Assembly: GCA_005406025.1 (NCBI GenBank)
Contig: BGZK01001330.1
Span: forward strand, 1 to 64,000
DNA from: Eumeta japonica
Lineage: Eukaryota > Arthropoda > Insecta > Lepidoptera > Psychidae
Length of the DNA: 64,000 bases
Direction of reading: 5' to 3'
The translations under genes were made by a program, and so were the position numbers. Position 1 is the stretch's first letter, and the number at the start of each line of letters is the position of its first letter. This document shows positions 1 to 58,100 of the stretch, one piece after another. The notes under the pieces are model-generated. The model was not told the DNA's origin. It saw nothing but the letters and a program-made list of their open reading frames with translations, and made no database searches.

Positions 1-228
1 CACCTGTTATAAGCGCCTGTATCACAGACACGGTATAAAGTTTTATGTATTGTAAATAATTGGGAATTTGAAAAAATATTTATTTTTTATGTATTTTAAA
101 ATTAATTATTAATTTTATTGATATGTTATTTGAAAACGAAAAAAATTTTTTCAATTATAAGCGATTAAAAATTGATAAAATTTAAAAATCACGTGACTGA
201 ACGCGCCACAATGATTGCCACCATACTT

Positions 229-612
229 GTGACGTCATAATGTTATAGCATTCCATAACAGTGCAGCGTTTACAGCTATTATAAGTAACTAATGACAATA
301 TGAATATGAAATACTTACATCAAAGTGATCTCTTCACAACAAAAGTTCGATTTTGTTTTAGGATTATCTCGGAGCACTGCTTGAAACCATTTTTCGACGT
401 TTCTCGTCTTGAGGAACATTTAAAAACATTTTTCCAGGTTGTCTTTGTAGTATTTGTACATAATGGTACAAAACAAGAGCGGTAACTTTTGAGATTTGAC
501 ATTTTATATATTTTGAGTATTTAACAATGACAGAATAAAATAATCAAAACTCAAAAGCACTACACTTATCTCCGTATACTACTACGAGTGACAACTAACA
601 TTATGACGTCAC
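229..612 (-). mobile_element. TIR-bounded element with a decayed THAP exon (copy 1)
   Basis: A perfect 17-bp inverted repeat (GTGACGTCATAATGTTA at 229-245, its complement at 596-612) bounds the element. Weaker outer similarity around a GCGCC motif suggests the true ends lie slightly further out. On the minus strand 502-319 reads as a THAP-like zinc-finger start: a C-x4-C pair (CFVPLC), then a basic stretch. A 2-bp insertion disrupts the expected C-E-D-H-F-D end, and a consensus donor GTAAGT follows at 318-313. The element at 39988-40690 has the same layout. It is a non-autonomous or decayed DNA transposon; a P-element-like or other THAP-transposase origin is inferred. Confidence 0.65.
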
Positions 613-859
613 ACGCACTGATTTGTTCGGGAGTTGTCGGCGCGTCTTCGGTACTGGATTCAAAAAATAATTTTTATTTTGATATAGCTTTTTAATTATT
701 GTAGAAAAAAAAATAAAAATTGTTTTGTTATAAAACTAATATATGATCTTTCCATTTTTCAACAAAAAAATTTTTTTCAAAAACCTAATTGTGTGTTAAT
801 ATTATAATCGTGACAAATAAATGATAAGAAAGCAGATCTGGAGGGGCGCCTGTCGGCCG

Positions 860-3113: not shown

Positions 3114-4258
3114 AGTGGATTTTTCAGTCACAGTTCCTATTCCGCGGTTGCGATCGGTCGCCTTCGGTCCAGTCCCCTGACCCCACTTAGTTTACTGTGT
3201 TACTGAGGTGAGTGTTTCCCGTAGCGCGTTTCGCGCGTATACGAGTGTGCGCGGTACCGTGCAGTGCACCGTGCGGCGACAGCCATATTATGTTCGTCCT
3301 GTGTGTTCGCTCCGCCTTACTGCGCCGTTCGCACGCTGAGCCCTCCCCGGTTCGTGCCTCGGCTGAGCTGCCGCAGGAGCCGCTTCTAATACCGATCGCT
3401 TTTTGGTTATTTCATGTGTTTTTCGCACATAAACGGTTTGTCATTGACTGCGGAGAGCGACCGCATTTGTCGACCAGCAACACTCCTTAGGGAGGGACAA
3501 TGCTCGAGTGTCGACTGCCAGCGGTCAATCTCTGTTATCGGTATACGACCCGATTCCGATTCAAAATCAGCTGTGCCACGTTACGTTTTTAGGTAACGCT
3601 TATAGGTCATTTCTTAAATCTTAAATTTAAATTCAGTGATTTAAGGGCCTACAGCCCTCAACCGGAACCGCTAGTTTTTTCGCCTCTCGCGGAATTATGC
3701 CACCCCCTCAACTACTCGCTTTTAAAAGCGTCGTTTGATACCTAACTTATTACACAATGTAATAAGTAATTATTTAGTTATTTTGTCTCTTCCCGGGGCA
3801 CAATCGTCACCTATGACGTTACTATGTCGTGGTAACCGAAAAGGGGTCAAATGATTTTTCGCGCCTTTGGCACTCCTTGTGCCTCCTGGCAGCTTTGGAT
3901 GAAGTCCTCAAAGCTCCAATATAATTGGAGCTACGGACAACTCCCATCCGACATGTTGATTCGGATATTTTTTGATCCGTGAAAGTCGGACACACCACGC
4001 ACACGGATGCGTGGAGCTCATTAAGTTTTTTATCCCCCTCTCCCCGCAAGGAGAAAATAAAAAGGGATTTTTTGTCAGTTCGAGTGCAGCGGCCGACGGA
4101 ACAATCCTGAAGAAGCAGCCCACCGAAGAGAGTGAAGCCAGTGTAGTGCAACGACGACGGCGTTGTATTCAGAGCCACCCGGGAGAATATCCGTCCTCCA
4201 CATTGTCAGTTGTTCTTTTCATTTTTCAAAGACTTTGCCAGTCGCATATCATCTGAAT
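3114..4258 (+). other. GC-rich repeat-like block, unclassified
   Basis: It follows directly on the A tract at 3104-3113 and starts with CAGTCACAGTTCC, similar to the 5' ends of jockey-type elements. GC content stays high to about 3600 and again at 3980-4210. Short open frames exist (3212-3490, 3972-4256), but none shows a domain I recognise. It may be the 5' leader and ORF1 start of a second truncated non-LTR element. Confidence 0.3.
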
Positions 4259-6689: not shown

Positions 6690-7620
6690 TGATGAAGCCA
6701 TTGTTTATAACTGGTTTAACGAGTTCAACCATGTTGCACTAATCTGATTGACGATCTACGTGAGGGACGTCCTTCTATGGCGATGACCGAAGACAACATT
6801 AATGCTGTGCAGCTTATGATAGAGACTGACAAAAGAGTGACCCATCAACAAATTCAGACAAGCTTAAGAATCAGTATGAGTCAAGTATACAATTCTTCAT
6901 AACATTTAGCGGTTAGGAAACTTTATACTCGATGGATACCTCATAGTTTGACCGAAGCTCAAAAAGTCCGTCGTGTTAATGGGTGTCGCGAAATGATGCA
7001 GCGTTGCCGGTGGTGACTCAAACGCTGTGTGCGACGTAGTTATATGTGACGTGAGCTGGTCTACTGTTACGATCCCGAAATGAAGTTATTTAATGGGTAT
7101 TTCCTTTCGAGGATTGCCTGCTAAAGTAAAACGAGGTGGAAGCTTCGGAAAAAAAGTGGTGGGCTTCTTCCGAATGATAGGTCATTAAGGTACAATTGTT
7201 TGAAGGTAAAAGCAGTCACTGCATTGGTGGCACAATTGTTTGTTTCTTGTTTTGGAAAATGATCGAGAAACATGACCTCACAATAGGATTCTCCTTCATA
7301 ATGACGATGCCTCACCACAAACCGCTAAACAAACAAACTATTTGGAGATGTTAGGTATAGAAATACTGGCCTTCAGCCCGATTTCGCACCGTGCGATTTT
7401 ATTTCCTAAAATAAAAAAAAAACTTCAAGGAAAGTGGTTTACGGACGTCGAGAAAGCAGTGCATACGAAAAGGCCGCCCCCTAAGTGCGAGTGTGCAGAG
7501 TTTCATCCAACTGGTTCCATTAAATGTAGCGACGTATTGATCTCATCGGACACTATTTTGAAAAACAACAATAATGTAAATGACATGCCAATTTGTTCAT
7601 TTTTTTGATTTTCTAGGGAC
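6690..7620 (+). mobile_element. Decayed mariner transposon
   Basis: Across frameshifts and stops the plus strand reads as a mariner transposase. The LIDDLREGRPSMAMTEDN linker (around 6745-6800) is followed by an HQQIQTSLRISMSQVY helix, RWIPHSLTEAQKVRRV (6930-6985, the WVPHxLTxxQKxxR motif), fragments near the catalytic DESW position (around 7050), and C-terminal pieces to about 7600. Not functional. It belongs to a different lineage from the fragment at 4270-4760. Confidence 0.7.
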
Positions 7621-11811: not shown

Positions 11812-13164
11812 CTAGTTGAGAGAAGGCGAATGTCCATCGTCCCAAACTACGTCAATGCTTGGCCACTTGGTCTGCAAGCAGGTAAGCATTGGGTCACTGC
11901 TGGCAGCACGCAAAGGACATTCCAGTAGTGCCGCACGCCCTGTTCGAAAGACCACACGTCCACCTGGATTACTTCGAGGTAATCCATTATAATGTAGCAA
12001 TGTAAATGTATCTGGTGCACCTCTTTCACATCCAGGGAAAAATTCATCCATAAAAGCACTCAAAAGAATGATTCCTAGATTTTCAGAATCCAATTTTTTT
12101 CTCATAAGTTCCACATACTCTGGTTCACTCACAAGATCCGCCGCACATAAAACGTCTTGTAAAGCTGCTGAAGGAATGAAGTTATTACCTTCAGGATCAA
12201 AAGAACGAAAAATTCTTTCAGCAGATTCACCAACAGTCTCTGGAGCAGCTAACCTTCTTTCAAAAGAAAACAACACAGTTAAATGTGTCTCTGAGGCTAA
12301 TACCCAAACAGGATGCTTAGGATTTTTATAAAAAGATCCTACAGTACAATACTGCATGTGTTCCATTATAGTCAGAAAACCAATATCATTTTGCCGTTCA
12401 ATGCCACGTAATCGTAGACCTCCCACAACCTGCTCATGATCCCACACATGTGCTACTGCTCGACCTGTCAGCATTAAATTGATAAGGCCTTGAGATCCAT
12501 AGCCATAAGTTGAATGTATTAGAGGGTCCGAAAGTTCAGCAAGTTCTGCCTCCACAATGCTTACACCTTTACTAAGGATTACACTATACAACAATAATAA
12601 CACTCCATATTTGTCTTTAAGGATACGTATGTTTCTGGTATAGAAAGACTCGACTTCAGATATTGTTTGAAACGAATGCACTTCTAATCGTTGATGAAAG
12701 TAGTCAATGGGATCACATGCATCTTCTACAGTAACTCTTCCAGTACTGGTTTCAGGTTCATTATCAATTTTTCGGTATACGGCTACATTATACTTAGAAG
12801 CTAGACACTGGCTTAATATGGAACAGACTGCTCTAACAAGTAGAGAGTTACACTTTTCAGAAGTTAAATCTTGAAAACAATGTCCTGGTGTCTCAGATAA
12901 AAGTATTTTCAGTAGAAAACCTTGTACAGGGGCTATAGCAGCGCAAGGACCCCCTTCTTGCTGAATTAAAGCACTAGGTTCATCAGCGCTAAATTGAAAA
13001 CCTTGTGCCCATCGTCTAAACACATCTTCTTTTACATTGGCACCCCATAATAATTGCCTAGTAGAACTCAACTCCTGTTCTAATGAAGCAGTTCCAGCGC
13101 TCATGCTTTGTCTATCAATTCTTCCAGAAGTACTAGTTTCTGATTCGTTCGGTCCGTTTAACAT
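11812..13164 (-). CDS. MINDY3: MINDY-3 deubiquitinase homologue (FAM188A)
   Basis: A 450-residue cysteine protease of the MINDY family, which cleaves K48-linked polyubiquitin; the human protein has 445 residues. Visible features: a tryptophan-rich N-terminal segment (LLWGANVKEDVFRRWAQGF); the nucleophile motif EGGPCAAIAPVQ with Cys74; YGYGSQGLINLMLTGRA near 220-235; the ETHLTVLFS motif with catalytic His294; an EF-hand-like insertion characteristic of MINDY-3 (about 316-376, FDPEGNNFIP then LGIILLSAFMDEFFP); and the conserved end TKWPSIDVVW...SPSLN. The start at 13164 is chosen because a splice acceptor precedes it at 13193-13194 and the spliced leader has upstream in-frame stops. Met21 would align better with the start of the human protein and could also be used. 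The coding sequence has no intron. The frame extends to 13218 only by reading intron sequence. Confidence 0.93.
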   Translation of the reverse strand: MLNGPNESETSTSGRIDRQSMSAGTASLEQELSSTRQLLWGANVKEDVFRRWAQGFQFSADEPSALIQQEGGPCAAIAPVQGFLLKILLSETPGHCFQDLTSEKCNSLLVRAVCSILSQCLASKYNVAVYRKIDNEPETSTGRVTVEDACDPIDYFHQRLEVHSFQTISEVESFYTRNIRILKDKYGVLLLLYSVILSKGVSIVEAELAELSDPLIHSTYGYGSQGLINLMLTGRAVAHVWDHEQVVGGLRLRGIERQNDIGFLTIMEHMQYCTVGSFYKNPKHPVWVLASETHLTVLFSFERRLAAPETVGESAERIFRSFDPEGNNFIPSAALQDVLCAADLVSEPEYVELMRKKLDSENLGIILLSAFMDEFFPGCERGAPDTFTLLHYNGLPRSNPGGRVVFRTGRAALLECPLRAASSDPMLTCLQTKWPSIDVVWDDGHSPSLN

Positions 13165-13384
13165 TTGTAAATCTCGTACTACGCTACACCATCTAAAAAG
13201 AAAGAATGTATTAAGCATGGTAATACAAAAGCAAATTTAACCATGTACAGATAATCACTCAAATGCAATCAAGCGTCGTAATTAATAAGTTAGTTGTATA
13301 ACGTATTAATGAAAATAATATTAACTAATTTACATAAATCATAATCTTTAATCGTAACCACGTAATACTTACAACACAGCTCAT
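13165..13384 (-). other. MINDY3: MINDY3 5' leader: short intron and upstream ORF
   Basis: On the minus strand a consensus donor (GTT|GTAAGTATT) follows position 13373 and an acceptor (TTTCTTTTTAG) ends at 13193, defining a 180-bp intron (13193-13372). An ATG at 13384-13382 lies 12 nt before the donor. After splicing it would form a six-codon upstream ORF (Met-Ser-Cys-Val-Met-Val-stop) ahead of the main start at 13164. The transcription start is not identified. Confidence 0.55.
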
Positions 13385-25624: not shown

Positions 25625-26050
25625 TCCGGGAAAGTGCCGCGTCGGCGAGGTAACGAGGACGTGCGCCGTGCGCCGCGCGCTGCGCCGCGTGACCGCTCTG
25701 GCGCGGACGGTCCTTCACCGCAGGCTTAGTTTCGAGCGCGCCAGCTGTTGTAATGGTCTACAAACTACATCTCGGACTCGTTCGTTTCCGCGCAGTGCCG
25801 GCGACGGCGGCGGCCAGCTGCGCGGCGGCGGCTCGTGAGTCAGGCGTCGTTTAACGGGTCGCACCTCCGCCGTTCGCGGAGCGCACCGGCCCGCGTGACT
25901 CACCGCGCCGTGACGTCACGCGCGAGTTATGTTATGCACGCCCCCGCCCCGACCCGGCCCCTCTTATGCATACGCTACGATGTTTCGGCAAGTACAATGC
26001 CCGCCGTTCCTCTGCACTACCGTTGTACTCGAAACGAGACATAAATATTT
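25625..26050 (+). promoter_or_regulatory. crb: CpG-rich promoter/first-exon region of crumbs
   Basis: About 400 bp with dense CG dinucleotides in otherwise AT-rich DNA, surrounding the predicted crb start codon (25753) and first donor (25835). No TATA box is evident, which suits a CpG-type promoter. The transcription start is not determined. Confidence 0.5.
25753..25834 (+). CDS. crb: crb exon 1 (start codon, signal peptide first half)
   Basis: Encodes [20 protein letters not shown] and seven more residues, then one base of codon 28. An in-frame TGA at 25690-25692 precedes the ATG, which has G at -3 and G at +4. The donor is C|GTGAGT. Phase 1 matches the exon 2 acceptor, and the join gives a basic n-region followed by an alanine-rich hydrophobic core. 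Confidence 0.75.
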
Positions 26051-33900: not shown

Positions 33901-36900
33901 AGTTGTACAACTCAATATTTCATGTAATAAAAGAGGGATGCGATAAAATTTTCCAAACAAGAATTAATAAAATATATGAGTTTTTATCGTTCAGTGATTG
34001 GTCAACAGTGGGAGTACACAAAGTAGGAAAAGATTGTATGACCTTTATATCGAAAGAGCATACAATAAAAGTGAGGGATTTTACTGTATGTTAAAACTTT
34101 TCAATGTGTTTGTATCGGGGCCATAATAAATTATATTAAGAGCAAAATAAAAAGCAATAAAACTTTAATGATAACAACTGGGATTGTCATAGAGAACGAA
34201 ATTGACAAAATTAAAGGTCGCGATTTTGACTTTCTACTTAAGATAAATGATAAAATTCTAAAAAAAGACATAGAATTTACTGAAGGCTTTGAAGTATTTT
34301 TACTGACATTCCAATTTCAACTACCGAACCTCTTAATTCATCTCCGCTCTTGCTGAATCCTTACTGAGGGAAAATATTCCGCCGATTGATATTAATTTAG
34401 AATGTAAATGTATGTATTCGGAAGACATTATTAAGACATTCAAGTTGTTGGCTATGAAAAAGACTACTGATCTCTATGGTCTGTCAGTTAAAATTGTAAA
34501 CTCCATTATTGATTGTATTGCACCGCGTTTGACGCTTGTTTTTAATAAACGTTTAGATGATGGCATGTTTTCTGATCTGATGAAAGGAAGCAAAGTTGTT
34601 CCCGTATTCAAAAGCGGTAGTAAATCGAACCCCACTAACTTTAAGCCTACATCTATACTGCCGACATTAGGTAAAATTTTTGAAAAGTTGTTCCTAAATC
34701 AACTTCTGCCACATTTTTATAGTAATAATCGAATGTCCAAAAAACAGTTCGGTTTCACACGGGGTCGCTCAACAGTCGATGCTGGTGTTGAGCTTGTTGA
34801 AAAATTTTTTGAAGCCTGGGAGGATTCGCGGAATACGATAGGAGTGTTTTGTGATTTCTCCCAGACGTTCGACTGTGTAAATCACGAAATACTGATCAGG
34901 AAGCTACACCATTATGGAGTTACGGGTCGTGCACTCGACCTATTAGCATTATATTTTACTAATAGGGTTCAGAAGATCGATAACATGAGATCGTCTGGAT
35001 CCGGGGTCTGCATGGGAGTACCACAGGGATCGATCCTCGGTCCGTTTCTGTTCTTAGTTTATATTAATGACTTACCAAGCCTTGTTAAGGATATTTATGA
35101 GATGGTGCTATTTGTAGTTGATACTTCTTTATTATTCAAAGTTGAAAGACTCGATTATGACATTGCTATCTCCAAAATTGAAAAATTGTTTACTCTGAAT
35201 AATTTATTTCTTAATAGGATGAAAACGATCTTACTTTCAAATGTAAAATGGATCTAGTTCTATTTTAATAAGAAAAGTGGAATTAGAACTTGTTGACACT
35301 ATTGTATTCCTAGGTCTTACTTTAGATAATAAACTTCAGTGGGGTCCTCATATATGTGAGTTGGCGAAAAGGTTTAGCTCTGCTGCATTTGCAATTAAAA
35401 AAAAACCGGCCAAGTGCGAGTCGGACTCGCGCACCGAGGGTTCCGTATAAGTTTATATTTATTAAAAAATATATATTTTGTAATGTAACTAAAAATTTAA
35501 GGTTTTCGGAATTTTTCCTTTATGTGTGCTATAAAACGTTGCTTCATGCCAAATTTCAAGATTCTAGGTCGACTGGAAGTACCCTTTAGGTTTTGATTCC
35601 CTTGCGAGTACTTGCGAGTTTCAAAATATGCAGCTTAAATTGCTGTTTCTTTTGATTGCGTTGACATAGAAGTTTGATTTTGTTACAGCTTAAAGGTATT
35701 ATAGACCTGAGTATTTGGTATGAATATCAATTTAATACCTCTACGCGTTTATGAGGAAATGGGTAGTAAGTTTAAAATTATTAAAAAAAATATATTATGT
35801 GATGTAACTAAAATTTATGGTTTTCGTAATTTTTCCTTTATCTATGCTATAAGACGTTGCTTCGTACCAAATTTCAAGATTCTGAGTTCACGGGAAGCAC
35901 CCTGTAGGTTTTGATTCCCTTGCAAGTGTCGAAAATTTGCGGCATAAACGGCTGTATCTTTTGATTGCGTTGGCTTAGAAGTTTGATTTTTCACAGCTTC
36001 AAGGGACAGTAGACCTGAGTAATTGATATAAATTTCAGCTTCATACCTCCACGCGTTCCTGAGAAAAAGGGTCTTGACAGACGGACGGACGGTCGGACAG
36101 ACGGACAACAAAGTGATCCTATAAGGGTTCCGTTTTTTCCTTTTGAGGTACGGAACCCTAAAAATAAGGAATTTGTCCGATATCAAAACCGACAGATTGG
36201 TTTATTTTGGCTGTCGTTGTCCTAAGGCGATTAGCTACATTTCCATCGATTAGAGTGACCCAGTGGTGACGAAGACGCGATCCTTTTACCCGCCTTCGAT
36301 TAAGAGTTATGTTTTCGCGCGTATCCATGTATGCACGTAAGTGTTTGTGACATTCTTGTGACATTCTTTATCGTCCAAACGGCTGGGTGGATTTCTCAAT
36401 TTTGATATTACCAGATTTGTTTTGACAACCAAAGTGTTCTAGGAGAGCCGACGACAAAAAATATTAAAATTTTGTGCGTCATAATGGGTAATTCACCTAC
36501 TTGTGTGAAGAAATAAAATATACTTCAGTATAAATATTTTTAATCTAATAATTCATTGCAGGCGGGGACAAGTTAAAATTACAAAATTTACTAAAAAAAG
36601 ATTGTATTAAATTGAATAAATTATTTATGCATCGAAGTATATTTTGATTTTTCACAAAAATGGGTATAGAACATGTAAACATTGGACAGTAGATTTAATT
36701 ACTATTAAATTTCATAACTGAACTTATTTATCTTAAATCGTGGATTTCATTTTTCTTTTAAGACTTTTTGCAGTCGGGGTTTTTTTTTAAGGAATGGAAC
36801 CTGATCTTATATTTACATGTTGTTATGTTGGTAATTCGCATTGAGCATATCGAGTAGTTGACCCTTGAGGGGCTCGGAAGTTAAGGTTATAAGTACTGCT

Positions 36901-39900
36901 AGACTATAAATGAAACAATTTACACCGTTTTTTCAGTCCGTCTGTCACAGGTACTTTATTAAAAGACTAAGACTTATATTGATGAAATTTATAGTGTAGG
37001 TGTCTATATAAGCCGTCATTTAGTTTGGTGGTTAAATAACAAACAAATATTTCTAGGGGGAGCACTCTATACATGTTACAGAACCTGAAAAATTTTTTCT
37101 CAGCAAACCTCAACGTGTGGCATATATTAGACAGTGCTTGTAAAAACACTTTAAGGTTTACAAACAATTTTTCCGATTACGTGAATAATTTCGGAAATAA
37201 TAGCTTCGAAAGTAACAGAAATTATCTCTCCCCTCCATTTTATTTTCTAATTCGTATGTTCAAAAAATACGAAAAAAATACCAAAGATAATGTGTAATAA
37301 ATAGGTTCAACGAAAATTATTTTGAGTTATTGCAGAAAAACTGTGCTTCTCAACAACAAGACGAAGTGCCATTAAGATGCGCTCTTTGCTGATGCACTTC
37401 AGTTTACTCTAGTTTAATAGTAATAATCGACATACCTATTTGTTTTTCTAGTTACACGCGACTAAAGTGCTTATAACTATTCTGTGCGGGAAACATGGAA
37501 AAAGTGTAACAACGTACTTTTTTCATCTGTAGTGCATTTTTTTGTAAAGATCGTATCGAATAAGCATGATCTGACATGCTCTTGGCCAGTTTTTTCTTAT
37601 TTCTTTATTTAAAAAGAAGGTGTATGGTCATTATTTTTAGACAGGTACAAAAATAATCAAAATGTTTATTTTGAATGAATGTTTTAAGCAGCCAATTATA
37701 CAGAGAGGACGTAAGGAAACTGTGACGTCGTTGTGAGCCTCGGTGCGCCCTAGTACATGTGTGTTAAACTCCCTTTGTGTAAGAAAGTGGTGGTAGAAAA
37801 TTTTTAATGGTTTACAGATCATCGTATCCGCTTACGACATATTTTATTAGCAAGTATAATATACAGAATATCAGCATATTGTGTATACTTTGTAGAGACT
37901 GCATTTTTATCAGTTGTAGTAGCCGATATTTTCGTTTCAAAATGTTGTTCGTACGGTTGCAGTGTGCTGGTCGGCGATGCTGTGCGCGGCGGCAGCGGCG
38001 GGCGGCGGCGCGGGCGGCGCGCGCCCTGCGGGCCCCTCGGGGCCGTCGGAGCGCCCGGAGGCGTACTTCAACAGGAGCTCGTACATACGCCTCTCGAAGC
38101 CCATCTCCCTAAAGCAGATCGTCGGGTTGAGTTTTAGAACGTGTGTTGGTGAGTTCATGCCTTTAATATATGCCTCTCATTGATACATAGACTCAAACTT
38201 TGAACGAGACATTTGAACGTACATCTCGCGATAGTACAAATCAATATTCGAAAGTGTCAAGGCCTAGGGGATCGAGGTCGACATCGGAATCGAGATCGAA
38301 AATAACGTTTGCTACATTTTAAATGACGCAGCGAAACGGGCGAGACGTCGCTAGTCGTCGATGATGCATCGCCTTTTGTTGCTCATAGACATTTATCGAA
38401 TACACGATGTCATTTCGTCGTTCGGTCCGGTCGTCGCAAGGCCGCGAACAAATTCGCAACGTCACTGCGTACGCGAACCGCTAATCCTGCACGCTCCTTT
38501 TTTTGCGATTCGGTGAAGGCACCGACCACGCCGCGCCTCGGCGGCGGGCGGCCGGCGAGTGATGCGCCGCGCCGTCGCGGCGCTGGGGCATTCCGGCGAT
38601 TGTCTGCGGCGACGCCGTCATGCGCGCGGCATCCATTATCCTGTTTATTTCATTAACGTAATTCGAACGACGATTAAGCGAGCGATGCAGACGATCCGTT
38701 TGCGAGGACAGTTGGTTTAAAAATATTTTATTAGGTGATATTTAACTGCGTTTCTCCTCAGTTTTCGATTTACACTGATTATATTTCATTAACGTAATCT
38801 CGTGAACGTCTTACGAGTCACTTTGAAACGCTCGGTAACGCGATGAGTCACCGAACGAGAGAGGCCCGAATCCTTGTTATGATCGAGCAGACATTTTGCA
38901 AAAAAATATATTTGTATTAGTATATGATATAAAATTGTTAATATGAAATTGCAGATTCTCCTGCGTCAACTAAAGTTTTCGACTTTACACCGATTATTTG
39001 ATGTGGTATTTGTTACATAAATCTGTTTTTTTGTTTGTTTTTTGAAACATCTATATTTTTTGTGATAATTTTCTCCAATAATTTGTCCCTTTCTTCCGTC
39101 TAGAGGGCGGAAACTGTCTTCCTGACAAATTTCATCAAAATTGAGTCACATACCTTAATCCTTTGAAAGTTTGCCCTCGGCTCCGTGTGCTTGAAAAAAA
39201 TTCAGTCCGATCCCTAGGTGATAAAGCGTCATAAATATATCCAAATTAGATCGCGAATTAGGACTAATAAATCATAAGAAATTTCATCAAAATCCGTAAT
39301 GATTTCTGTGTTTACCGTGTTCATACAAACAGTCAGACATGAATTCAAAGAAATATTATTTTTAGTTCAGTATCGTCCACATTACCCATACTAATTATTA
39401 TTTTGAAAAAAGGTGTTTTGTACATAATTGACCACATTACGATTTTAATAATTAGTAAAGTAGTAAGTATTTTTCCATAGCCTTTTCTCAATACAATTTT
39501 TCCAAATGTGTTTGTATACCAGCGAAACACATTACTGGTTTACATATACATATATATATTTTTAATTTTAATACTCAATATAACGCAATATTTATAAGGT
39601 GTATTTTTTCTTATCTTTATGCACACAGAGTTTCCCTGTCAGGCGAATGCATATTTAGGTACTCCTGTGATATTCTGTTTGGACATCAGTAGGCTATTGT
39701 TCAGTATGGAATAGTTAGAAACTCGTTAACTCTTACAACTAGATGTTTATCCAATCATTATTTGTGGTATTCTATTGTGTTAGGTGTTAATTCGCGGAAA
39801 TCCATAATAGTCTGTTTGACAACTTTTAAAATATTCAACAAATTGTGGTCATCTTAAAATATTATATTATAAAGAAATATATTTCACTTTATTTTGATGT

Positions 39901-42900
39901 AAAACATATGTATTTTTAACAAAATAAAGCAAATCAATTGTAATATTTTTTTAAATTTTATCTGGAACATGAACGGTTGACATTCCGGTGACGTCACACG
40001 CAAGTAAACAGTTGTCTCGGTAGTTCGCTTCGTGAGTGTTTTTCGTGTTTTTATACGTTTAATAGCAGTTTTCCAACAGTTTTCTGCTTATTCTTCCATT
40101 TTGTTTTACATCTCGTTGCGTAATACCTATCTATTACACATCTCAAATCGTCCTTTTCCATCTGCAATGCAAAATGATTATTAACATGTGATAATAATGC
40201 TATTCAGTATTTTTTTCTGAAAACGAAAAGAAAACTAGGAAAATATAACTACATAAATATAATTAATAGGTTTTAAAAGAATTCTTAATAATATTGCCGT
40301 ATATTAAGAGGTTATGTAATGACATAAACACATGAACCAAAACAAATACATATATCGTTAGATTATCACATATTATTAACTACAATCTACAATTATATTT
40401 ATTTATAGTTAATTATTACTTACATCAAAGTGATCTTCACACAGAAAAACATTCGAATGAGATACAGTGCTTTTTGTGTCTCTTCGAGCTAATTGTAACC
40501 ATCATTTTCGTCTCTTGGGATTTGTTGGAACGGAAACAAACAATTTTTGAGGATTACTTATACTCGAACTTGTACACTGTGGCACTACACACCATTTGTA
40601 TACCATTTTAGGGCATAAATTTCAATAAACAATTAAAATACACTCCAGCTGCACTAATCAAAACAAATGTTTACTTGCGTGTGACGTCACGCGTGACATG
40701 TGACCAGCGCCATTATAGAAACAGTGTTTATCGCGGGTTTTATTAAATTTAAATTTCTACATTGATTTTTCATCATTAAAACATTAAATATTTCGGAAAT
40801 ATCAATGTAGGGTAATTATTATCATATAAACATTAATATAAAACTGTTTTCCAAAATTTGTCAAATAGCCGATTAGACGCTTGCCTGCAACATGCATTGA
40901 CATGCAGCACGCTCCCCACCGCTGACACTCGAATCTCTTCTTCCACAACGAATCCCTATCCAAAGAATCGAATATTACTTCGAAAGTATAGACAGATATC
41001 GAACACCTAAGCAATTGTTATTTTTTTATTTATCTTAACGGACTAAGATAAATAAAAAAATAACAATTGCTAAGTGTTCGATATCTCTCGATCCTCTCGA
41101 ATCAACATTCTGTTCTTGGATAGGGATTCGTAGTGGAAGAACAGATTCGAGGGTCAACGGTGGTTGCATGCTGCATATCAATGCACGTTGAAGGCAAGCG
41201 TTTAATTTATTTGTGGTGCCGAATTTAGTAGAAAGCTCACTAATTGATGTTACTTCTTCAATTTTTGTATCGCTAAATTATCTGACATGATTCACACAAT
41301 AGTTCATGTCGATATGTGAATCATCAATCATAACAGCTGTTTGGTATGATGTTCTTTATAATTTATGGTTCCTGTTTGATTGCACTGGTGAAATCGACAC
41401 ATTATTGTATTGTAATATGTGTAGATAGCGTGTTGAGCGCTTGTAGCGAATAACTTTTAGCGCGTATTTATATGTGAATGAGATGGTTCGAACTGTCGAA
41501 TATTATTATAAAAAAAAGTATGGTCCGTGGTATTGCCTAAACTGAAGACTTGCTTTTAGTATCACTGAAGGTTTTTAAAATCTCTTTCGCACACAGCTCG
41601 ATCCAACCAGATACATACAAAGCAGCAGCGTCTTTTTAGTTCGCCCACTTCGTGCAAGTGGCGCTGATACAATGCTAGTGGAAAAATACGCTTTGTAGCG
41701 ACCAGTTAAGCGTTTGTGTTAAGATAGCCCGCCTGTGCACTTTAGATATTATAAGAATTACATGGATGTATATTATTTTACAAACGAAAAATTGACAGAA
41801 TTAATCTTTATGGGTAAGTATCTGATGAATGTTAGAAATGACATTCGTCATGTGTGTTTTTGGTATTTAAACACTATTAGTTCTTTAAATAGGAAATAAT
41901 TGATAAAACTATTATAATTATTATATTTGTGTCAAAATTATTATTCAGTCTTTTAAAATTTTTATGTACAAAGTTTTATCGTTTTGTGTTACACTCTACA
42001 TCACGAGCACTCCATTTTTGGCATTTGTTTACAATTTACACGACGATTCCACAGTTTTATTATAGATATCACGGTGGAGTAACCCACTACTTGAAATCGA
42101 TGGCATATTAATTTACATGCGACGACTGGACACATAATAAAACAGTGGATAAAATGAATGTAGTTCGAACGTCCCTATTTATGGTGAAATAATTTGTTTG
42201 CTAAAGAAAACGACACGACAGCACGACCACTTAGTGCAAACCTTATCGATACAGCTGTCTCAGTCAGCAGGTTATTCGTTATTGTACGCTCGGTGTGTTG
42301 TGGCGGCTTATATCCCGGAACCTAAAATCAGCCGCCGGTCTATCGCCGCACTTGCAATTTTAGTGCAATTTACGCTATTGGGATTTAAAAAATATAAACT
42401 ATAAACTACTTCGTATTTTTTGCTAATTTTTATGTAATAGATAGTCAAAAACTTCATCTTCCAAACTGAACCTTTGGAAAAGTGTGTAACGTAATTTGTG
42501 GTCATGCGATGTGCGGCGTCAGGCGGAGAGCTGTTCTCGCAGCGATACGAGGGGTACTCGCTGCACGTGACGGCGCTGTTCGAGCACGTGGTGGTGTCGT
42601 GGACGTGGCCCGGGCTGCCGGCGGGCGGCAGCACGCGACTGGAGCGCGCCACGCTCGACAACCGCTGGCATTGGGTGGCGCTGCGGCGCCGGCTCGTGCC
42701 GCCCGGCTTGTTGTTGGAAGTCGATCGAGACACGCAGGTACTTAGTTATGGGACGCCACAGTATCTTCCTACTAATATTATGAATGAGAAAATTTTTATG
42801 TTTGTTAGTCGATCATGCTTTAACGGCTGAACAGACTTAGCTGAAACTTTACAGTGATATAAATTAGAATAACATATTATAGACTAAAATTTACAAAAAT

Positions 42901-45900
42901 GCTAACTTTTGCTCGCAGCTTCGCTTGCATGATCATAAGACGAGTTCTTATGTCGATTCGTTATCGGTAACAACAATGTATAAGAGAAATTCAAGTTCGA
43001 CATCGGTTCGAGACCGGAGTCGCCAACAGGACCGGGATCACGACTAAGAGTATTAGTGGAATGGTTTCACAATAAAAAACAGCGATGTTACGTGTTATTA
43101 GGGTAAAAATGTGGATTCTTCTGATAAGGAGTCGAGAACAGCACCGAGATCGGGAATATGGTGGTCGATAACGCTGTCGATAGATATAATGGATTACACA
43201 ATCCGTTGTGTGTACACATGCAAGGGAGGCGAGAGAATTATGTAGATATTTCTAGATCGGAAATTAGATCGGGAATAGAATCGGAATCAAAAGCGGAGTC
43301 AGGACATAAATCGTAAGAAGGAATACCATCGGGATCGCGGTTTACATGTTCAGACGATATGGAAGAAGAAAGAATTCATTCGGTGATCGAGCGGGCGAGG
43401 CCGCGGGCGCAAATTTTGCTACATATAAATAAATAAAAAATTATAATGGTGTGATACATCTAGTAGAGAACGTAAATGGAAATAAATTAAATAATAAAAC
43501 ATACTACAGATCCTTAAGACATTTTTTTTTGTAAATCATTTCGTAAAAGTTAAGTATCTAACTTATTTATTACAAACTAAGAATTATTTCAATATTTATT
43601 ATACTTTCCTTTTCGTTTCATTCGGTTAAAAAAAAATCTACAATAAATGTTTCCTGTGAAATAACAAGGGTTTAGTCATCTATTGTAGATATTTGCCCTG
43701 TAAATACTAGAGATCGTTGACAGGTTTATTAATATTTGTCGTCAGTTACAGCTATGGATGTAAACTGTGATTGCCGTGAAAAGTTTTACTATTATATTTT
43801 TATTATTACTTGTAGAATTTCATCAATATTCATCCATATCAAAACTATCATATAACATGTAACTGTGACTGATATGTGAGGCTGTGTTAGCTATTCTGTT
43901 AACTAGCTGTGGAGATTTTAAGTCTGTTATCAATAAGGCAGGCTTAGACTATTGTGGAAACTTGAAACTCCTTATGTTTTTATTTTATTACATGAAGTTA
44001 GTTGTATTCTATACATAGTTAAATAAGCGTATCCAACTGATGTCTTTTTAAAAATATTTATTTAATTAGACATAGGCAAGTTAAACTAGTAGTATAGGAG
44101 CTATGTACTACTTTCTAGTCGGTCTGCCGTGTGCAGCGCCGCCAAATACAGACAAACGTAGACAACCTCTCCGAGAGGAGGGGCGCCGGGGGCTTACATA
44201 TATTGTGACGGCGGGGGGCAAGGTAGCTTGTTTGTTCCTTGGCCATGAGCACTTCTCAGGAACAGCTGATGGGACGCAGACAATGACTCTGCCCCTTACA
44301 ATGTAACATATTTCTGTTGTGACCTTATGTGGACAATCTAAAAGTTGCAGGGTACATAACTACATTGCCAACAAAAACTTATAATTTTTTTTATTTGTTT
44401 ACCAATAAAATTAAACATATTTTTTGTTTTATGACGTTCCCTGGTCTCTTACTTAAAATATTTTACAATTGTGAACAGCTTCACAATTTCTCGTATCCCA
44501 ACCAAAAGTCGTCATCTCCCAAGTTAAGCAAGTTGTTCGATTTTACTTGATAATTTAGTTACATAGGTACCTACACTATCTGCTGTGATATAAATCCGAC
44601 AAAGACATGCACTAAAATTATAATGAAACTTTTTGGTGGCTTGCATACAGCTGGTCGCAAACGCTACATTTAACGCTGAGTTGGTCAATGGTGGACCCCT
44701 GGAGTCAGCCAGCGCCACATTGCTGGTGGGAAATCTGTTCAGCGGCTGCATCCACGAGGGACCACAGTTAGAATTCCACGCCACCGCTACTAGCCAGGAG
44801 AAGAATGTCGTGTTCGGCAACTGTCCTCTCACCACGGACGAATGTAAGTCATCGTTGATCCAAAAAGCATTAGTGTAATAAGTTATTTAAAATATTCTTT
44901 GTGAGTAACTGACTATAATTTAATAAAATGACAGGCAAAGATCGGCAAGATGTGTTGCGCATGCCTCCTAAAGACTTCTGCTTCAATGAACCCTGCTTAC
45001 GGCACGGTACCTGCATCTCTAGACACGACAGATACGAGTGTCATTGCGCGGCGCGGTACACCGGGAATAACTGCCAGGTGGACAAAGGAAATCCGTGCTT
45101 GCCGGAACCCTGCGAGCATGGCGGCCGTTGTGTCGAGGATGCACGCGGAGATTACACGTGTTTCTGTCCACCGCAGTATCATGGTAAGATCTTTATTTCA
45201 ATTTGTATACCACTAGAATTAGTATTTTCTCATAAATCTCACGGTGTCAATAGGTGTGCATTGCGAATTCGAGGTGAGTCTGGACCCACTGTGCGTAGCC
45301 GGTCCGTGTCGAAATAACGGCAGCTGCAGCGTGCCCGCCGGCGCCGACACTTACATATGCGAGTGTCCACCCGGCTACACGGGCCGCAACTGCGAGACCG
45401 ACGTAGACGAGTGCGCCGGCGCGGACGCCGCTTGCCTCAACGGCGGCCGCTGCCTTGACGCCGTCAACAACTACACCTGCGACTGCAGCGAAACCGGTTA
45501 CAAGGGTGCACGCTGCGAGATCAACGTCAACGAGTGCGAGGAAGAGCGCACTCTTTGCGGGCACGGCATCTGCTACGACACGTACGGCGGTTATGTTTGC
45601 GCTTGCTTGCCCGGTTACGTCGGTGATCACTGTCAAAAGGTACGTTATTTAAGTATCCTCATCTTACGGCGCACCTGATTAATATCAACTGACACGGACA
45701 TTGTTTATGACTATTATCAGTTGTCGGCGTGTGCGTCGTCACCGTGCGGCGTGGGCGGCACGTGCTTTGATGAAGGCGTCTCATTTCGATGTTCATGCGC
45801 ACGAGGTTGGAGCGGCCCACTTTGCGCGGTGCCTATGCCGTCACCGCCTGCGCTTTCACCATCGGTTGCCCCGCCCCTGTCTTCGTGCGTCAATCACGTT

Positions 45901-48900
45901 TGTCCGGAACATTCGCACTGTCGGGACTCACAAACGATAGGTAATTACATCGTTGTTCTTTGAAATAATTCCGAATTTATGAGTCTGTTCAAGTTCAAGA
46001 GGAATAATTTTATTAAATTACAGGAATGTCGACTGCCAGTCCTACTATGACCTCGTTAAAACAAGCACAATGCTATTGTGATCCAGGATATTTCGGTATG
46101 TCTTGTATAACAGCATAGAACTGCATGCATACTAGACACATAAGGAAATATGGTAAGGCCTAATGTAAAATAACATCTATAACGCAGGAGCATCAGGCAT
46201 GTTTCCTAACTGTTCGACATTGGAGCTGGCGTGCGAGGTGGGCGTGTGCCTGAACGGCGCTACGTGCTCACTTGCCGCCGACCACTTCAACTGCACGTGC
46301 GCACCCGGTTTCAAAGGTGATGACTCGACACGACTCAGCATGAAAAATGTTGTTTTACGTCTTTTTACGAATGAAACAGTTGTTGTGATTGATGCTATTT
46401 ATGTCCCCTTTCCAAACTCATTTTGATGTATATCGATGTCCTTTTTTAAGACAAGTTTGTTTAGTGTTGTTATACTTTAATGTTTGATGCATTTCGCGTG
46501 GAGTACTTAATATTTTTATGGTAAATGAAATGGTTGTGCATGTCTTCGATGTTCATCGTCGCCATTATCATCGTGATTGTGCTGCTTACCGTTAACGCTT
46601 GTCACTCGCTGTGTCGCGGAGGTAGGCGCCTACTGCGAACTGGCGGCCGGCAAGGCGCTCTCGGAGTTGAAGACTGCGGAGCGCTGTGCAGATGCGCCCT
46701 GTATGCACGCCCGCTCCTGCGCAGACCTCGTGAGTGTTTGGCTTCCATATTATTGTTTTGTTTATTTCATTTGTATTTTCATTAAAGTCAATTAATATAT
46801 GCAACTGATTACGTAGATTAAGAAAAATACGAGAGTAATATTTGTAGACCAATATGAAATATTCTGTAAATGTTCCGTTTGCGATTTATTTTTCTTTCGT
46901 GAGTAAATATTTAAATGCTCGAGCTGTATGTGGTGTATGTACCTATTCATTTATATACTAATATATTACAAAGCTTTACTTACTGCATGAGTGTGCATTA
47001 CAATTCTTAAAGGTTAGTTACAACTTATGTCATAATTATAAAAATACGAGTAAAGAAATTAAAAAAATAATATCCTAAAGATGTGCTGGCCATACCACAG
47101 TATTCTTCACCGCACTTATTCCGGGTGCTCCATCATATGGAGGGTACGCTTGCGGCTACCAGGATCGCGTCCGTCACGCCTAGGAAACTAGGCATGACGG
47201 GTGCTAGTTCTAGTTTTCACGAAGGGCGAAACGCAGCCTAAGAAGTCCGCTTCCATATTCTGATTATACATAGAGGGATACACTGTGTAGGTAGTTATTA
47301 AGTTAGAAGAAGATTATATTGCATTACAGGTTTTCTCATATTGTATATGTTCATCACTTGAAATAATACGTTTCCGCCGCTTACATGTTTTTCACACTCA
47401 ATGCACCTATGCCCTCACGAGGACATTACAGAATAGATAACAAAATTGATGGTGTCTGTGAATTGATGAAGGACAGACGATTTGATATTCTGTGCGTGAA
47501 TGAGATTAAAAGAAAAGGTAGTGATATTTATTGATCTGGTGGTGATCAGAGCCTACGAAGATGCTGGGATGTTGGCTCCATTCTATGTCAAAGATTATCT
47601 GAGTGTGTAAACTGTTACGTATTTGGGAATCCAAAACTCCTCTGGTTGCGGATTATAATTAGATTGGCGCCGATTTTTGTCTTAGTTTCATTTGTCTCAG
47701 ATATGTGCAAACTGAACAAGGAGTGAGAACAATTTTGTACTGATGTACTTTTGTACTAAGTAATTTTAATGGCTGGGCCGGTGGACAACGGGATGGGTTT
47801 GAAAAAGTTTTGACCAAGTTCGGAAATCAAGAATGATTGAGAATGTATTACAATCTCTGGGTAATAAATGTAAAGTGTCTTTAAAAAATAGACAGAGGAA
47901 TAATGATGTGAGAGAATGGTGGAGTTTGAAAGAAGTAGTGACTCGAATAGAAAAAGGTATGTTACAGTAATTTGGCCATATGGAAAGGATGAATAAAGAA
48001 ATTAGATTGACAAAAGAAATTTATGAAGTGAATGTGTGCAATAGAATGATCGGCAAGAGACGCCCTAGTAATAAAATATAATACAGACCAAATTGGTGGG
48101 GTAGTAAATGAGGACAAATTTTGACCACTCATAACTAAAACATTTTCATGAAACAATTGATGAATGTCAAAAGCAAGAGAGGTACACAAAAATCATATTG
48201 AGATATCTACGTAGTAGAATTTCTATTTAGTATAGAATTTTCACAAGCAAAGAGAAATTCATTTACAATATTTGATCAAAAACAATACATACTTTTTTTT
48301 TTCATGGAAAAAATACATTATGACAAAGGCGAATTAACTATTTTCTTAACAGATGTTTACTCTGTTAGTGATGAAAGTTACTAAATGTCAGCACAATTCT
48401 ATAAAATAATACATGAATAATATGATAATTGTACAAGAAAAAATTCAACATAATTTAAGAAGAATTTCACCTAACTAAATTAGTGCTCTTGATTTCAAAT
48501 AGCAACCTATCTGCTGTGCATGCAACTTGTATAGGTACTATAGTCATTACCAAGCAGACTCTTCAGTTGGCATGGGGATATATAAATGTTTTATCTGTAT
48601 TACAAGGGCTCATGTTTGTGTTAATGTTAAGGATGTGTCGCTTTATGTCCAGTCGCTAGGATTTCATTGCGAGTGCGAGACGGGATGGAGTGGCGTGCGC
48701 TGCGACACCGCTGCGCTTGCGCCGGCACCCGCACCGCTCTCCGCCGCCGTCGACAACTGCGCAACGTGGCCCTGTCACAACGGAGGCACATGCCGCTTGT
48801 TGCCCGACGGTTATTCCTGCCAGTGTCGACCCGGCTACGGCGGCACGCATTGCGACATTGGTCTCGACTGCCGTGCTAACGGATGCCTACCTCGACAGGT

Positions 48901-49076
48901 CAAATCAATTCTAACTCGTTACATAGATTCTGTCTATATTAAACCAAAATAATTCATCTTTAGAATGAAATACTATTAGCCTTCATTATCTAGTTATGTA
49001 ATGTTGTATTTTTGTTATTCTAAAACAAATCGTGATAACAACAAATGTGCCAATTAATGAATAAATGATTTATATA

Positions 49077-55100: not shown

Positions 55101-58100
55101 AGTATAGTGATACACAGAAAAACTTCAAAATTTGCTACAGGTTTATATATATTTCACTCCAGGCAAAAACTGTTTAACTTATAATATAACTACATACATA
55201 AATTTCTTTTGTTCTTTACACATTCATAATGAAATTTTTCATATATAATAAATAATACAATGGATATCAATACTGTAATATTTGTTACTTTGTGAACACT
55301 CTTCCAGGCCCATATGCTGGTGTATTCTGTATACGTCTGCCTTTTAAATTGATTGCAAATGGTAACATAGAAGGGTGTCGAATATGGATGCCTCGGGCTT
55401 GCATTGTCCACGCTATCACTTTACATATTGTATCTTTTTTTGCTGTAATTGACACCCAGCCTATAGTCGATAATACTAAATCACCACAACAGACTTTAGG
55501 CCCTTCTCCATTAAACTCTAAAACTGTTGGGTGGCATTGCAGCCCTGGCCAATTACTTAATCGTTGCTTGCCACCAATAGGGACACCAAATAAGTCTGTG
55601 CCTAAGAAAGCCTCATATATTTCACAAGCATCTTCTGTTTTTGTAATAGTGATGGGAAGCTCATTTGAACAGAACACTGTGAATCGACATGCTTCGGTAC
55701 AATCAACAAAGTCTACACGAGCCAGACCGCCAATAAAGATAGTATGACCTTTGAATAAGTAATAAGTTTTGGGCTTGATGGTTTGCTTAGGGATTGCAAG
55801 AATTAACTCTTCGGTTGTTAAAAAAGATAAAACTTGATCTGGATGAATTACTCCTGGAGTGTCATAAAACCATTTACTTTTTGCAAAAATAGGATCCCTT
55901 TCATCAATGCTTAAGGGTTTATCCTCTGACTTATTGTGCGTGAGTTCATTTAAATGTCTGGGATTGGAAAAAGTTCTTCCGATGTGGCCAATCAAAGTGC
56001 GTATAAATTTATTTTTACCTCCTAATTGATTTTTTCTTATTTCCTCTTCAAGTTTTAAAAGTTTAGCTTCAGATTTTAATCTATGAGTTCGTGTATATAT
56101 TTTCCAATCTGAGGGTCTGTTTATAGGAAACTTGAGTAAGTTCAAAGTTGTGCCTGGCCAACGACTCACTGTGGCTCTCTTTATTATATCCACTGCATGT
56201 ACTTTGCAATAGTCTGACTGTAAAAGTGCATTGAATAGTGAACTTTTACCTACATTTGTACATCCTATTAAAAATACATCACCTTTAGCTAGCCATGTTT
56301 CAAACATTGCAGTTATTAATTCTTCTACTCCATAACCTGTTTTAGCCGATATTAATGATACATGTTTTATGTTCGCATCTCTCAGTTTTGTTCTTTTGAG
56401 TTCTCTTATTAATGAATTTTCAATTCTCTTGAGATAGCCAACACTATCACCTGGTATTAAATCAACCTTATTGCCCACAATTATTATGGGTCTATTTGTT
56501 CCAATGATATCAACAATTCCTGGCCAGATAGAACATGGGAAATCTAGCAAATCTACCATCATCACAACAAGTGACTTCACATGCCTTATAGACTCTAATA
56601 ATTTCTCGTATTCTTCAGGTTCAACATTAACATCAAGAGCAATATTATATTCTTTTAAAAAATGGCATCGCTGACATTCCATTTCCTTCATTTCATTTGG
56701 GGATCTCCCTTTAAATATTTCACTTGGTAGATAACCCGGAATAGATGTGTCACTGCAATGCATGAAGGCTCCGCAACCTCCACATGTGATTGTACTGACC
56801 TTCTCATTGGGATCTGGTGTGCCATAATATTTACTCCATTCAGTAATATTCACTTCATCAGATTCATCATCTCTCCACTCACTTTCGTTAAGTTTAGTAT
56901 CATCAAAATATTCATAATTCGTCATCCATTTACCAATATTGGATCTATCAAATTGATTTTCATTCTTCAAGATGTTTTCATGGCCAACTGAAACGTTATC
57001 TCTTCCACTTAGCTGGCTAGTTTTTGCAAATGGTAAATGAAATTGCTTCTCAGGTTCAGGCTCGGTGAGACTTTCATCAATTTCTTCTTCTAATAATCTT
57101 TCTTTCTCAACAAAATATTTCAATGATATAGGTAAAGGCCTAGAAGATGCTACCTCCATCTTCTTGATTACTTCCATCTTATTTTGTTGCAGTGTTTTCA
57201 AGTGATATTTAAAGTTACCTAATGTTAATTTATCCTTTTCTAGAAGTGAATTAAATATAATTTTGTTCTGAAATTGCTCGAATAAATGTTTCAGATGCGG
57301 CTCTTGTGTTGATCTATTCTTGTGGTTTTCACATCCTGAACTTGCGTGCGCATGAACATGCTTTCGAATATATAAAATGTTTTTGTTTAGTAACCTCAAA
57401 AGTTTATTAGTTATATACATATTCATTTTAGATTTTTTCTCCAATAGTTTGATATGTAGTCGCAGTTATTAACTAATAAACCTTAACATTGTAAGAAATT
57501 TTCAAACTGTAATAGTATATTTAACTGAAAACAATTCATTTCGTAGTTGACGTTTTTAGGTTTTCGTCCGTTTCATTGACGTTTTCGCAATGTAGTGCTT
57601 ATTTTACGCGTGACAGTTGTTACATGGATACATAATCCTATCGATTAGAAATAGCGTATCGATGTTTTTTTAGTAGTTATTGTATTCTATTATGATTAAA
57701 AGTATAAATATATAATACAATGACAATAATAAGTTACACATTATTTTGGTTTTCGCTACGATTGTTTGAAGTATTGCGTTACGTTATTTGAAGGTTCGTA
57801 AAATTTTAGCATGTAGAAAAACAAAATAACCCTCGAAAAGTCATAAATAAATGGAACAAATTAAAAATATAGAAATATATTATAATAACAATAATTTTAA
57901 TTCATTAACACCTTAATTAAATATATGTATTTAATAATTATCAATGTGGAATGTATATTTCGTAATTGATTAAAATTATTTTTTTATATTTATGTTTACT
58001 AAAAGGATTATAAGGACAAACAGCAAAGTATAAGTATTTTACTGTAGGACTAATTTATACATTCACAATCACATTTTGAATTTATTATAATATTATCCGT

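Follow-up and report, generated by a model that had tools for sequence, protein, structure and literature searches.

The window, which is the whole 64-kb stretch of DNA analysed, contains a transposon copy on its minus strand that carries one exon of a transposase gene with part of a THAP domain. The remnant of a second THAP element is found elsewhere in the window, along with a reverse transcriptase frame and ORFs read as a deubiquitinase, a GTPase and EGF repeats (Table 1).

Table 1. Features of the window, with positions counted from its first letter
Feature	Coordinates	Strand	Basis or remark
Second THAP element, other family, remnant	228–613	-	Perfect 18-bp inverted repeats 228–245 / 596–613 with TGACGTCA
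MINDY-3/4 deubiquitinase ORF	11815–13236	-	ORF reading
Reverse transcriptase frame	34337–35257	+	ORF reading
Whole non-autonomous, apparently ISL2EU-type element, including AAT/ATT target letters	39806–40874	-	1069 bp; flank alignment and left-end pattern search
Terminal inverted repeat, other end	39806–39822	+	Mutated here: AATAGTCTGTTTGACAA; most copies: AATAGGCTATTTGACAA
Terminal segment from the parent's far end (parent 3779–4117)	39806–40149	-	Mapping to long copy
Subterminal inverted repeat, other side	39988–40015	+	TGACGTCA at 39989–39996
Exon 2 remnant, first four codons (MEKD)	40150–40161	-	Rest of exon 2 deleted
Intron 1, 262 nt, 3' end TTGCATTGCAG	40162–40423	-	Exon 2 of long copies starts MEKDT(T/I)NYMKYKMG
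Splice donor GTAAGT	40418–40423	-	Kept in 26/32 short copies
Transposase exon 1, 61 codons of THAP domain	40424–40606	-	Pfam profile 1–58 of 87
TGA nonsense codon	40502–40504	-	Majority consensus TTA (L)
Subterminal inverted repeat, THAP side (terminal repeat of the original prediction)	40663–40690	-	TGACGTCA at 40682–40689
Terminal inverted repeat, THAP side	40858–40874	-	AATCGGCTATTTGACAA
EGF-repeat ORFs	44919–48952	+	ORF reading
GTPase with YqeH-like C-terminus	55288–57465	-	ORF reading

The original prediction described a 703-bp element (39988–40690) bounded by perfect 22-bp terminal inverted repeats. The repeat itself is present. Its two arms are 96% complementary over 28 nt, 22 nt of which are perfect, and the perfect 22-mer occurs in only two places in the 64-kb window, where none is expected by chance. 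Its position is subterminal, not terminal. When the genome (702 Mb, 5067 contigs) is searched with the 703-bp query, at least 81 stretches match, many of them 84–98% identical. For comparison, 39 genomic places were taken, most sides with at least 500 bp. The printed copies share letters outside the 22-bp repeat wherever the repeat is present, except that L019 and L025 drop out of the alignment early, each on a different side. When 500-bp flanks are aligned (32 rows on the left, 30 on the right), similarity reaches background only at AATCGGCTATTTG... and ...CAAATAGCCTATT. Oriented alike, the copies end together at AATCGGCTATTTGACAA... and ...TTGTCAAATAGCCTATT, and the 22-bp repeats sit approximately 180 bp inward of each true end. 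Because the copies keep matching past these repeats and end together further out, the element is placed at 39806–40874. The 703-bp interval is therefore not the whole element, and the 22-bp repeats do not delimit copies elsewhere in the genome. The original observation holds for the most part, but with wrong limits.

A genome-wide search for the left-end pattern, allowing up to three mismatches, finds 55 places (24 exact, 12 with one mismatch, two with two and 17 with three), and the reversed control finds none. The window element's own family accounts for 37 of these ends. The other 18, comprising one two-mismatch place and all 17 three-mismatch places, are of a related type, AATAGGCTA(G/A)TTGACAAAATTTGG. 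Ends of this related type occur on contigs C2, C44, C230, C814 and others, and one is near the transposase match on C1928. In copies with both ends located by a search anchored on the ends themselves, the left end has AAT in 27/27 and the right end has ATT in 24/27; L020 and L021 are omitted from the count for a spurious right-end match. The right-end exceptions are L018 (ACT) and L039 and L040 (both GTT). The ends read AAT-[C/A]-GGC, rarely AAT-T-GGC, which puts GG at positions 2–3 if AT is the duplication. No 8-bp duplication is seen by eye in the printed copy flanks.

On the minus strand, the frame 40606–40424 reads MVYKWCVVPQCTSSSISNPQKLFVSVPTNPKRRK, a stop and WLQLARRDTKSTVSHSNVFLCEDHFD (MVYKWCVVPQC...CEDHFD), followed directly by GTAAGT. 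The exon scores 42.5 bits against Pfam THAP (cut-off 23.9), and its frame matches the solved THAP2 structure with an E value of 2.6e-5. The zinc ligands are C6-x4-C11 and C56-x2-H59. This agrees with the predicted C2CH finger that ends at an intact donor. The description of the exon as near-complete is generous, as exon 1 ends two thirds of the way through the THAP profile; the last third is encoded by exon 2, of which four codons are left here. A single nonsense codon, TGA at 40504–40502, breaks the frame as predicted, and three other copies (L023, L035 and L043) also have a stop at this position. The THAP frame is present in other copies as well: exon 1 recurs, often decayed, in 34 other aligned genomic copies, including two long ones.

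The protein relatives of the exon comprise 14 exon-sized ORFs, 64–87% identical, and 28 longer proteins, 14 of which are listed with DDE_Tnp_4. A search of the same genome with one of these longer proteins, P0020, recovers two long copies, one on contig C252 (L078, 4117 bp between ends) and one on C934 (L079). Their THAP exon copies are 96–97% identical to that of the window over query positions 163–703. Both encode THAP exon 1 and an exon 2 that starts MEKD. Pieces of the long copies score 34.9 bits for THAP, 27.8 bits for HTH_Tnp_4 (L079; cut-off 27) and 144.9 bits for DDE_Tnp_4 (L078). A YqaJ domain (54.8 bits) is encoded on the opposite strand of L078, convergent to the transposase, and tblastn matches to YqaJ are present in all seven of L079–L085. 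Full-length relatives with a transposase, for which the original prediction suggested a search, are thus present in the same genome, with the gene broken in both: L078 and L079 have stops or frame breaks, and no intact source is among the long copies found. In L078, 93-bp inverted repeats (87%) are found at 906–998 and 7444–7536, and this copy may sit inside another TIR transposon. In the 28-protein search, the THAP domains of the beetle proteins P0022, P0023 and P0026 are 80–82% identical to the query, and those of the butterfly and moth proteins P0016–P0020 are 82–89% identical. The close match of THAP sequences across insect orders (beetles and Lepidoptera) may reflect horizontal transfer.

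The window copy consists of parent positions 1–729 joined to 3779–4117, at 96.6% and 88.7% identity. Approximately 3.05 kb between codon 4 of exon 2 and the far-end segment is lost. Among the seven copies mapped, L009 has the same join as the window copy, L022 is joined at 656/3689 and the type B copies L026, L027 and L035 are joined at 604/3475. L043 is a further-deleted form of type B. At least two other deletion types therefore coexist with the window type in the genome. Past the join, the tail runs antisense to the other (YqaJ-side) gene, upstream of the recognised frames of that gene, and by itself matches no domain family at cut-off. The consensus sequences of types A and B are identical across approximately the first 600 bp, exon included, which indicates a recent spread of the copies (about 2% divergence) from a single source, followed by decay. 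Exon 1 would have been kept only through its position in the roughly 600 bp of 5' end that the deletion types examined retain.

Passages of PMC4482050 and PMC9179366 describe ISL2EU elements as encoding a THAP, HTH and DDE transposase and a YqaJ nuclease, with A|AT|T targets. By domain content and ends, the window element appears to be a relative of ISL2EU (Harbinger-like, PHIS superfamily). The parent has the two genes that parts of Han et al. 2015 (PMC4482050) attribute to ISL2EU, a transposase with DDE, HTH and THAP domains and a YqaJ nuclease, and the ends of the window family are consistent with the AT target within A|AT|T given there. The parent is 4.1 kb long, compared with a mean of about 4.8 kb in the same account. 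The ISL2EU TIR usually starts with GG according to this source; here too a GG lies close to the start of the TIR, preceded by one extra letter, C or A. The window copy differs from ISL2EU in its deletion and in lacking a complete coding sequence for either protein. The window element is probably (about 0.9) an internally deleted, non-autonomous ISL2EU derivative that was mobilised in trans by the transposase of its 4.1-kb relatives, perhaps with their YqaJ nuclease, and is now decaying. Mobilisation would have been of the cut-and-paste kind, with A|AT|T as the target.

The decay of the exon is near neutral. Donor and frame counts are based on 32 of the 35 aligned rows, omitting the long copies L020 and L021 as well as L040, which is nearly identical to L039; the exon alignment is without the partial copies L042 and L044–L047. 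The frame is open in 11 of the 32 short copies, against a neutral expectation of 0.35 x 32, or about 11, which is rough in that any indel counts as damage and the tally of 11 allows one in-frame deletion (L022). All four zinc ligands are kept in eight of the 11 open copies, and one is lost in L017, L022 and L026. In type A (14 rows, without L019 and L024), N is 37 and S is 11, a ratio of 3.36 compared with 3.82 expected (p 0.72). In type B (16 rows), N is 46 and S is 11, a ratio of 4.18 compared with 3.70 expected (p 0.87). Since both N/S and the intact fraction are neutral, the exon is taken as a passenger; from these sequence comparisons, exon 1 is most likely a neutral passenger in the window element.

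Divergence is lower in the exon than in flanking noncoding sequence, at 1.9% vs 2.8% in type A (Fisher p 0.016) and 2.0% vs 2.5% in type B (p 0.11). The difference is put down to misaligned edges, because columns 120–600 are alike inside and outside the exon, at 1.3–2.4% for type A and 1.2–3.2% for type B. The exon may still be under weak constraint. A larger apparent constraint, seen with a pooled consensus (exon 2.0%, noncoding 5.9%), was rejected as a product of mixed subfamilies and misaligned edges and shrinks with per-type consensus sequences. In the pooled-consensus count, stops are in excess among changes (16/115, p 0.04), an argument against constraint. The window element itself is unremarkable: it derives by deletion from a known group, is MITE-like, and has a THAP exon that is apparently neutral baggage. 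The side results on a matched subterminal repeat and on nymphalid THAP fusions matter more than the element itself.

The palindrome TGACGTCA is located inside the subterminal repeat at both ends of the window element. Among 30 loci with transposase matches (47–83% identity), 21 contain TGACGTCA at least once and nine do not, some of which may end too soon to include it. Because sites are shared, the 21 positive loci reduce to 10 distinct contexts; that of L066 is probably unrelated. Six positive loci with different contexts, L080–L085, were picked for a TGACGTCA on the THAP side, so that only the far end is a test. An exact second TGACGTCA is present beyond the YqaJ side in five of the six, and L084 has TGACGTAA. 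L078 and L079, which belong to the window element's family, have TGACGTCA at both ends. The arms next to the core were compared in seven elements, without L079, which is of the same family as L078. The 18-nt inner arms at the two ends of one element have a mean score of 9.8 (14, 5.5, 8, 13, 14, 5.5 and 8.5), and those of different elements have a mean score of 2.8, with a highest score of 8.0. Of 5040 pairings of ends, no other scores as high in total as the true one. The 18-nt outer arm is hardly matched, at 2.6 within and 2.0 between elements.

The subterminal repeat is a candidate family-specific docking site, to which the transposase would bind through its THAP finger. This is inferred by analogy with the P and Galileo elements, where THAP sites lie inside the ends according to passages of PMC7776569 and PMC3688188. 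In the Galileo account (parts of PMC3688188), the THAP site is internal to the end, with a footprint at +63 to +80, which resembles the subterminal position here; unlike here, Galileo belongs to the P superfamily and its sites lie inside long TIRs. A core common to several families together with an arm matched mainly within an element is expected of a transposase recognition site. TGACGTCA is also the consensus CRE. It is possible, if somewhat doubtful, that TGACGTCA serves the two convergent genes only as a host CRE/bZIP promoter site and that the transposase does not bind it. At one end the palindrome lies upstream of the THAP exon and at the far end it precedes the YqaJ-side gene, and an ATTGG/CCAAT word is present outward of it on the YqaJ-gene side in most elements. 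However, a promoter needs no match between arms, and the inner arms are more alike within an element than across elements. A promoter role, in which the repeat would drive both convergent genes, is a reasonable rival to docking, and both roles may coexist. As a candidate docking site, the repeat is a short, cheap DNA target for testing a THAP transposase outside the P superfamily.

Judged by literature searches and the main texts of PMC4482050 and PMC9179366, the TGACGTCA palindrome looks undescribed for ISL2EU. The words subterminal and palindrom and the sequence TGACGTCA are absent from the main text of PMC4482050, and subterminal and palindrom are absent from that of PMC9179366. A literature search for GTGACGTCAC with transposition yields an Acinetobacter match only. 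In viral_contigs, the exact 23-mer of the subterminal repeat has no matches, and pattern matches to the THAP exon relative P0001 and to alignment A1 occur in seven and 59 stretches, none of which is confirmed by tblastn.

In four of the 28 longer proteins, from Vanessa atalanta, Schistocerca nitens, Bicyclus anynana and Epargyreus clarus, a C2H2 or ZAD domain follows the THAP domain. Our own domain scan lists THAP in three of these and not in the Schistocerca protein. A search with the post-THAP part of the Vanessa protein returns 20 proteins including the query. Precomputed annotation places THAP in two V. atalanta models and in models from V. tameamea, V. cardui and Nymphalis io. THAP is not listed in whole-protein scans of P0044–P0047. 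The N-terminal pieces of P0044, P0045 and P0047 score 41.5–43.7 bits for THAP, and the THAP part of P0046 is 89% identical to that of P0045. A Euphydryas model, P0057, has a quite different THAP (54.5 bits). The THAP-bearing species are all Nymphalinae, with the other two Vanessa species assigned by genus. Of the 14 remaining proteins, 12 were read (P0048–P0056 and P0058–P0060); none of the 12 starts with THAP, and several of them look truncated at the start; P0049, without an N-terminal THAP, is also from Euphydryas. P0027, P0044–P0047 and P0057 belong to a family of ZAD-like C2H2 genes in nymphalid butterflies, and their models have unlike N-terminal THAP modules.

In the five Nymphalini models, the common host sequence starts at one place, DF(H/D)N(S/N)(Q/K)(V/I)L(E/G)Y. 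In P0027, this start falls where transposase exon 2 seems to end. By THAP identity the five models form three types, P0027, P0044 with P0047 (70%) and P0045 with P0046. Between the two V. atalanta models, identity is 90% over the zinc-finger part but only 55% over THAP; between V. tameamea and V. cardui it is 89% over THAP and 78% over the zinc-finger part. The predicted gene models suggest that host zinc-finger genes have acquired related THAP modules by splicing on repeated occasions, the unit being exons 1 and 2 together and not a lone exon 1. The sober alternative is that the models were chained over nearby transposons.

Transposase capture by host genes was reportedly described in tetrapods by Cosby et al. 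in 2021. In this process, the DNA-binding exon of a transposon is spliced onto a host regulatory protein, as in the nymphalid models. The tetrapod study differs from the present case, which consists of insect gene models with unlike THAP modules on one host zinc-finger family. The capture model is taken here as a passage of PMC12062965 cites it. The nymphalid THAP/zinc-finger models provide an insect case for checking transposase capture. Tentatively, insect ISL2EU elements may have an unrecognised paired docking site, in which the TGACGTCA core is constant and the arm, specific to each family, co-evolves with the THAP finger of the same element, and the module of exons 1 and 2 may be a recurrent donor of N-termini, with three THAP types on one join of the ZAD-like C2H2 family in nymphalids and a fourth on a further relative. 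If this is true, THAP-fused transcription factors would find ready-made targets in the subterminal repeats of transposon copies.

The original prediction envisaged capture of the THAP exon by genes. In a wider form, with host genes taking up THAP modules by splicing, this is supported by the gene models of other insects, for modules of exons 1 and 2 and not for exon 1 alone. Export of exon 1 and its donor as a first exon to neighbouring genes at the locus is very improbable, even with the donor kept in 26/32 copies and 11/32 having an open frame too. The window exon contains a stop codon. Counting ORFs of 120 aa or longer, the first recognised gene downstream on the minus strand is the MINDY-3/4 ORF (13236–11815), more than 26 kb off, and the first EGF-repeat ORF is approximately 4 kb away on the opposite strand. 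None of the 28 longer proteins joins host sequence directly to exon 1. None of the 14 exon-sized ORFs continues with exon 2, and no spliced small product is found among them; 13 continue VS..., the reading expected of an unspliced GTAAGT-like donor, and P0011 continues IN....

The short element is also unlikely to have been kept for encoding a shortened THAP protein in competition with the transposase, in the manner of the P-element KP repressor, a 207-residue product of a deleted P element in parts of PMC7776569. At least three deletion types retain exon 1 and the donor, and the window type keeps the acceptor, so that a 97-residue product would be possible without the stop. Selection on such a product was rejected on the neutral N/S and the neutral fraction of intact frames. 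The spliced product would lack the C-terminal third of the THAP profile, its tail would be read against the YqaJ-side gene and upstream of that gene's recognised frames, and the retention may reflect the one recent source of types A and B. Passages of PMC7776569 describe internally deleted copies with terminal and subterminal inverted repeats for P and KP, as here, and a P-element THAP domain that binds inside the ends, as proposed for the candidate docking site here. In contrast to KP, there is no sign of selection on the short product here. P-element transposases also have an N-terminal THAP domain in parts of the same source, and membership of the P superfamily on this ground is hardly tenable. 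The long copies carry DDE_Tnp_4, as the catalytic domain, and YqaJ genes, and the ends are AAT/ATT with no 8-bp duplication in the printed flanks. The P element, by comparison, has another transposase class, an 8-bp duplication and no YqaJ gene. The evidence favours a passenger exon in a deleted ISL2EU relative.

The second THAP element (228–613) is probably copy 1 of the original prediction. It has its own GTAAGT donor at 318–313, and its THAP exon is decayed, with a broken frame. It is older than the element at 39806–40874. The 64-kb window contains eight TGACGTCA sites, compared with 0.7 expected under a first-order Markov model, and four of these are in the two THAP elements. Single TGACGTCA sites are present at window positions 25911, 32728, 51686 and 60072, the first of which lies in a GC-rich, promoter-like stretch.
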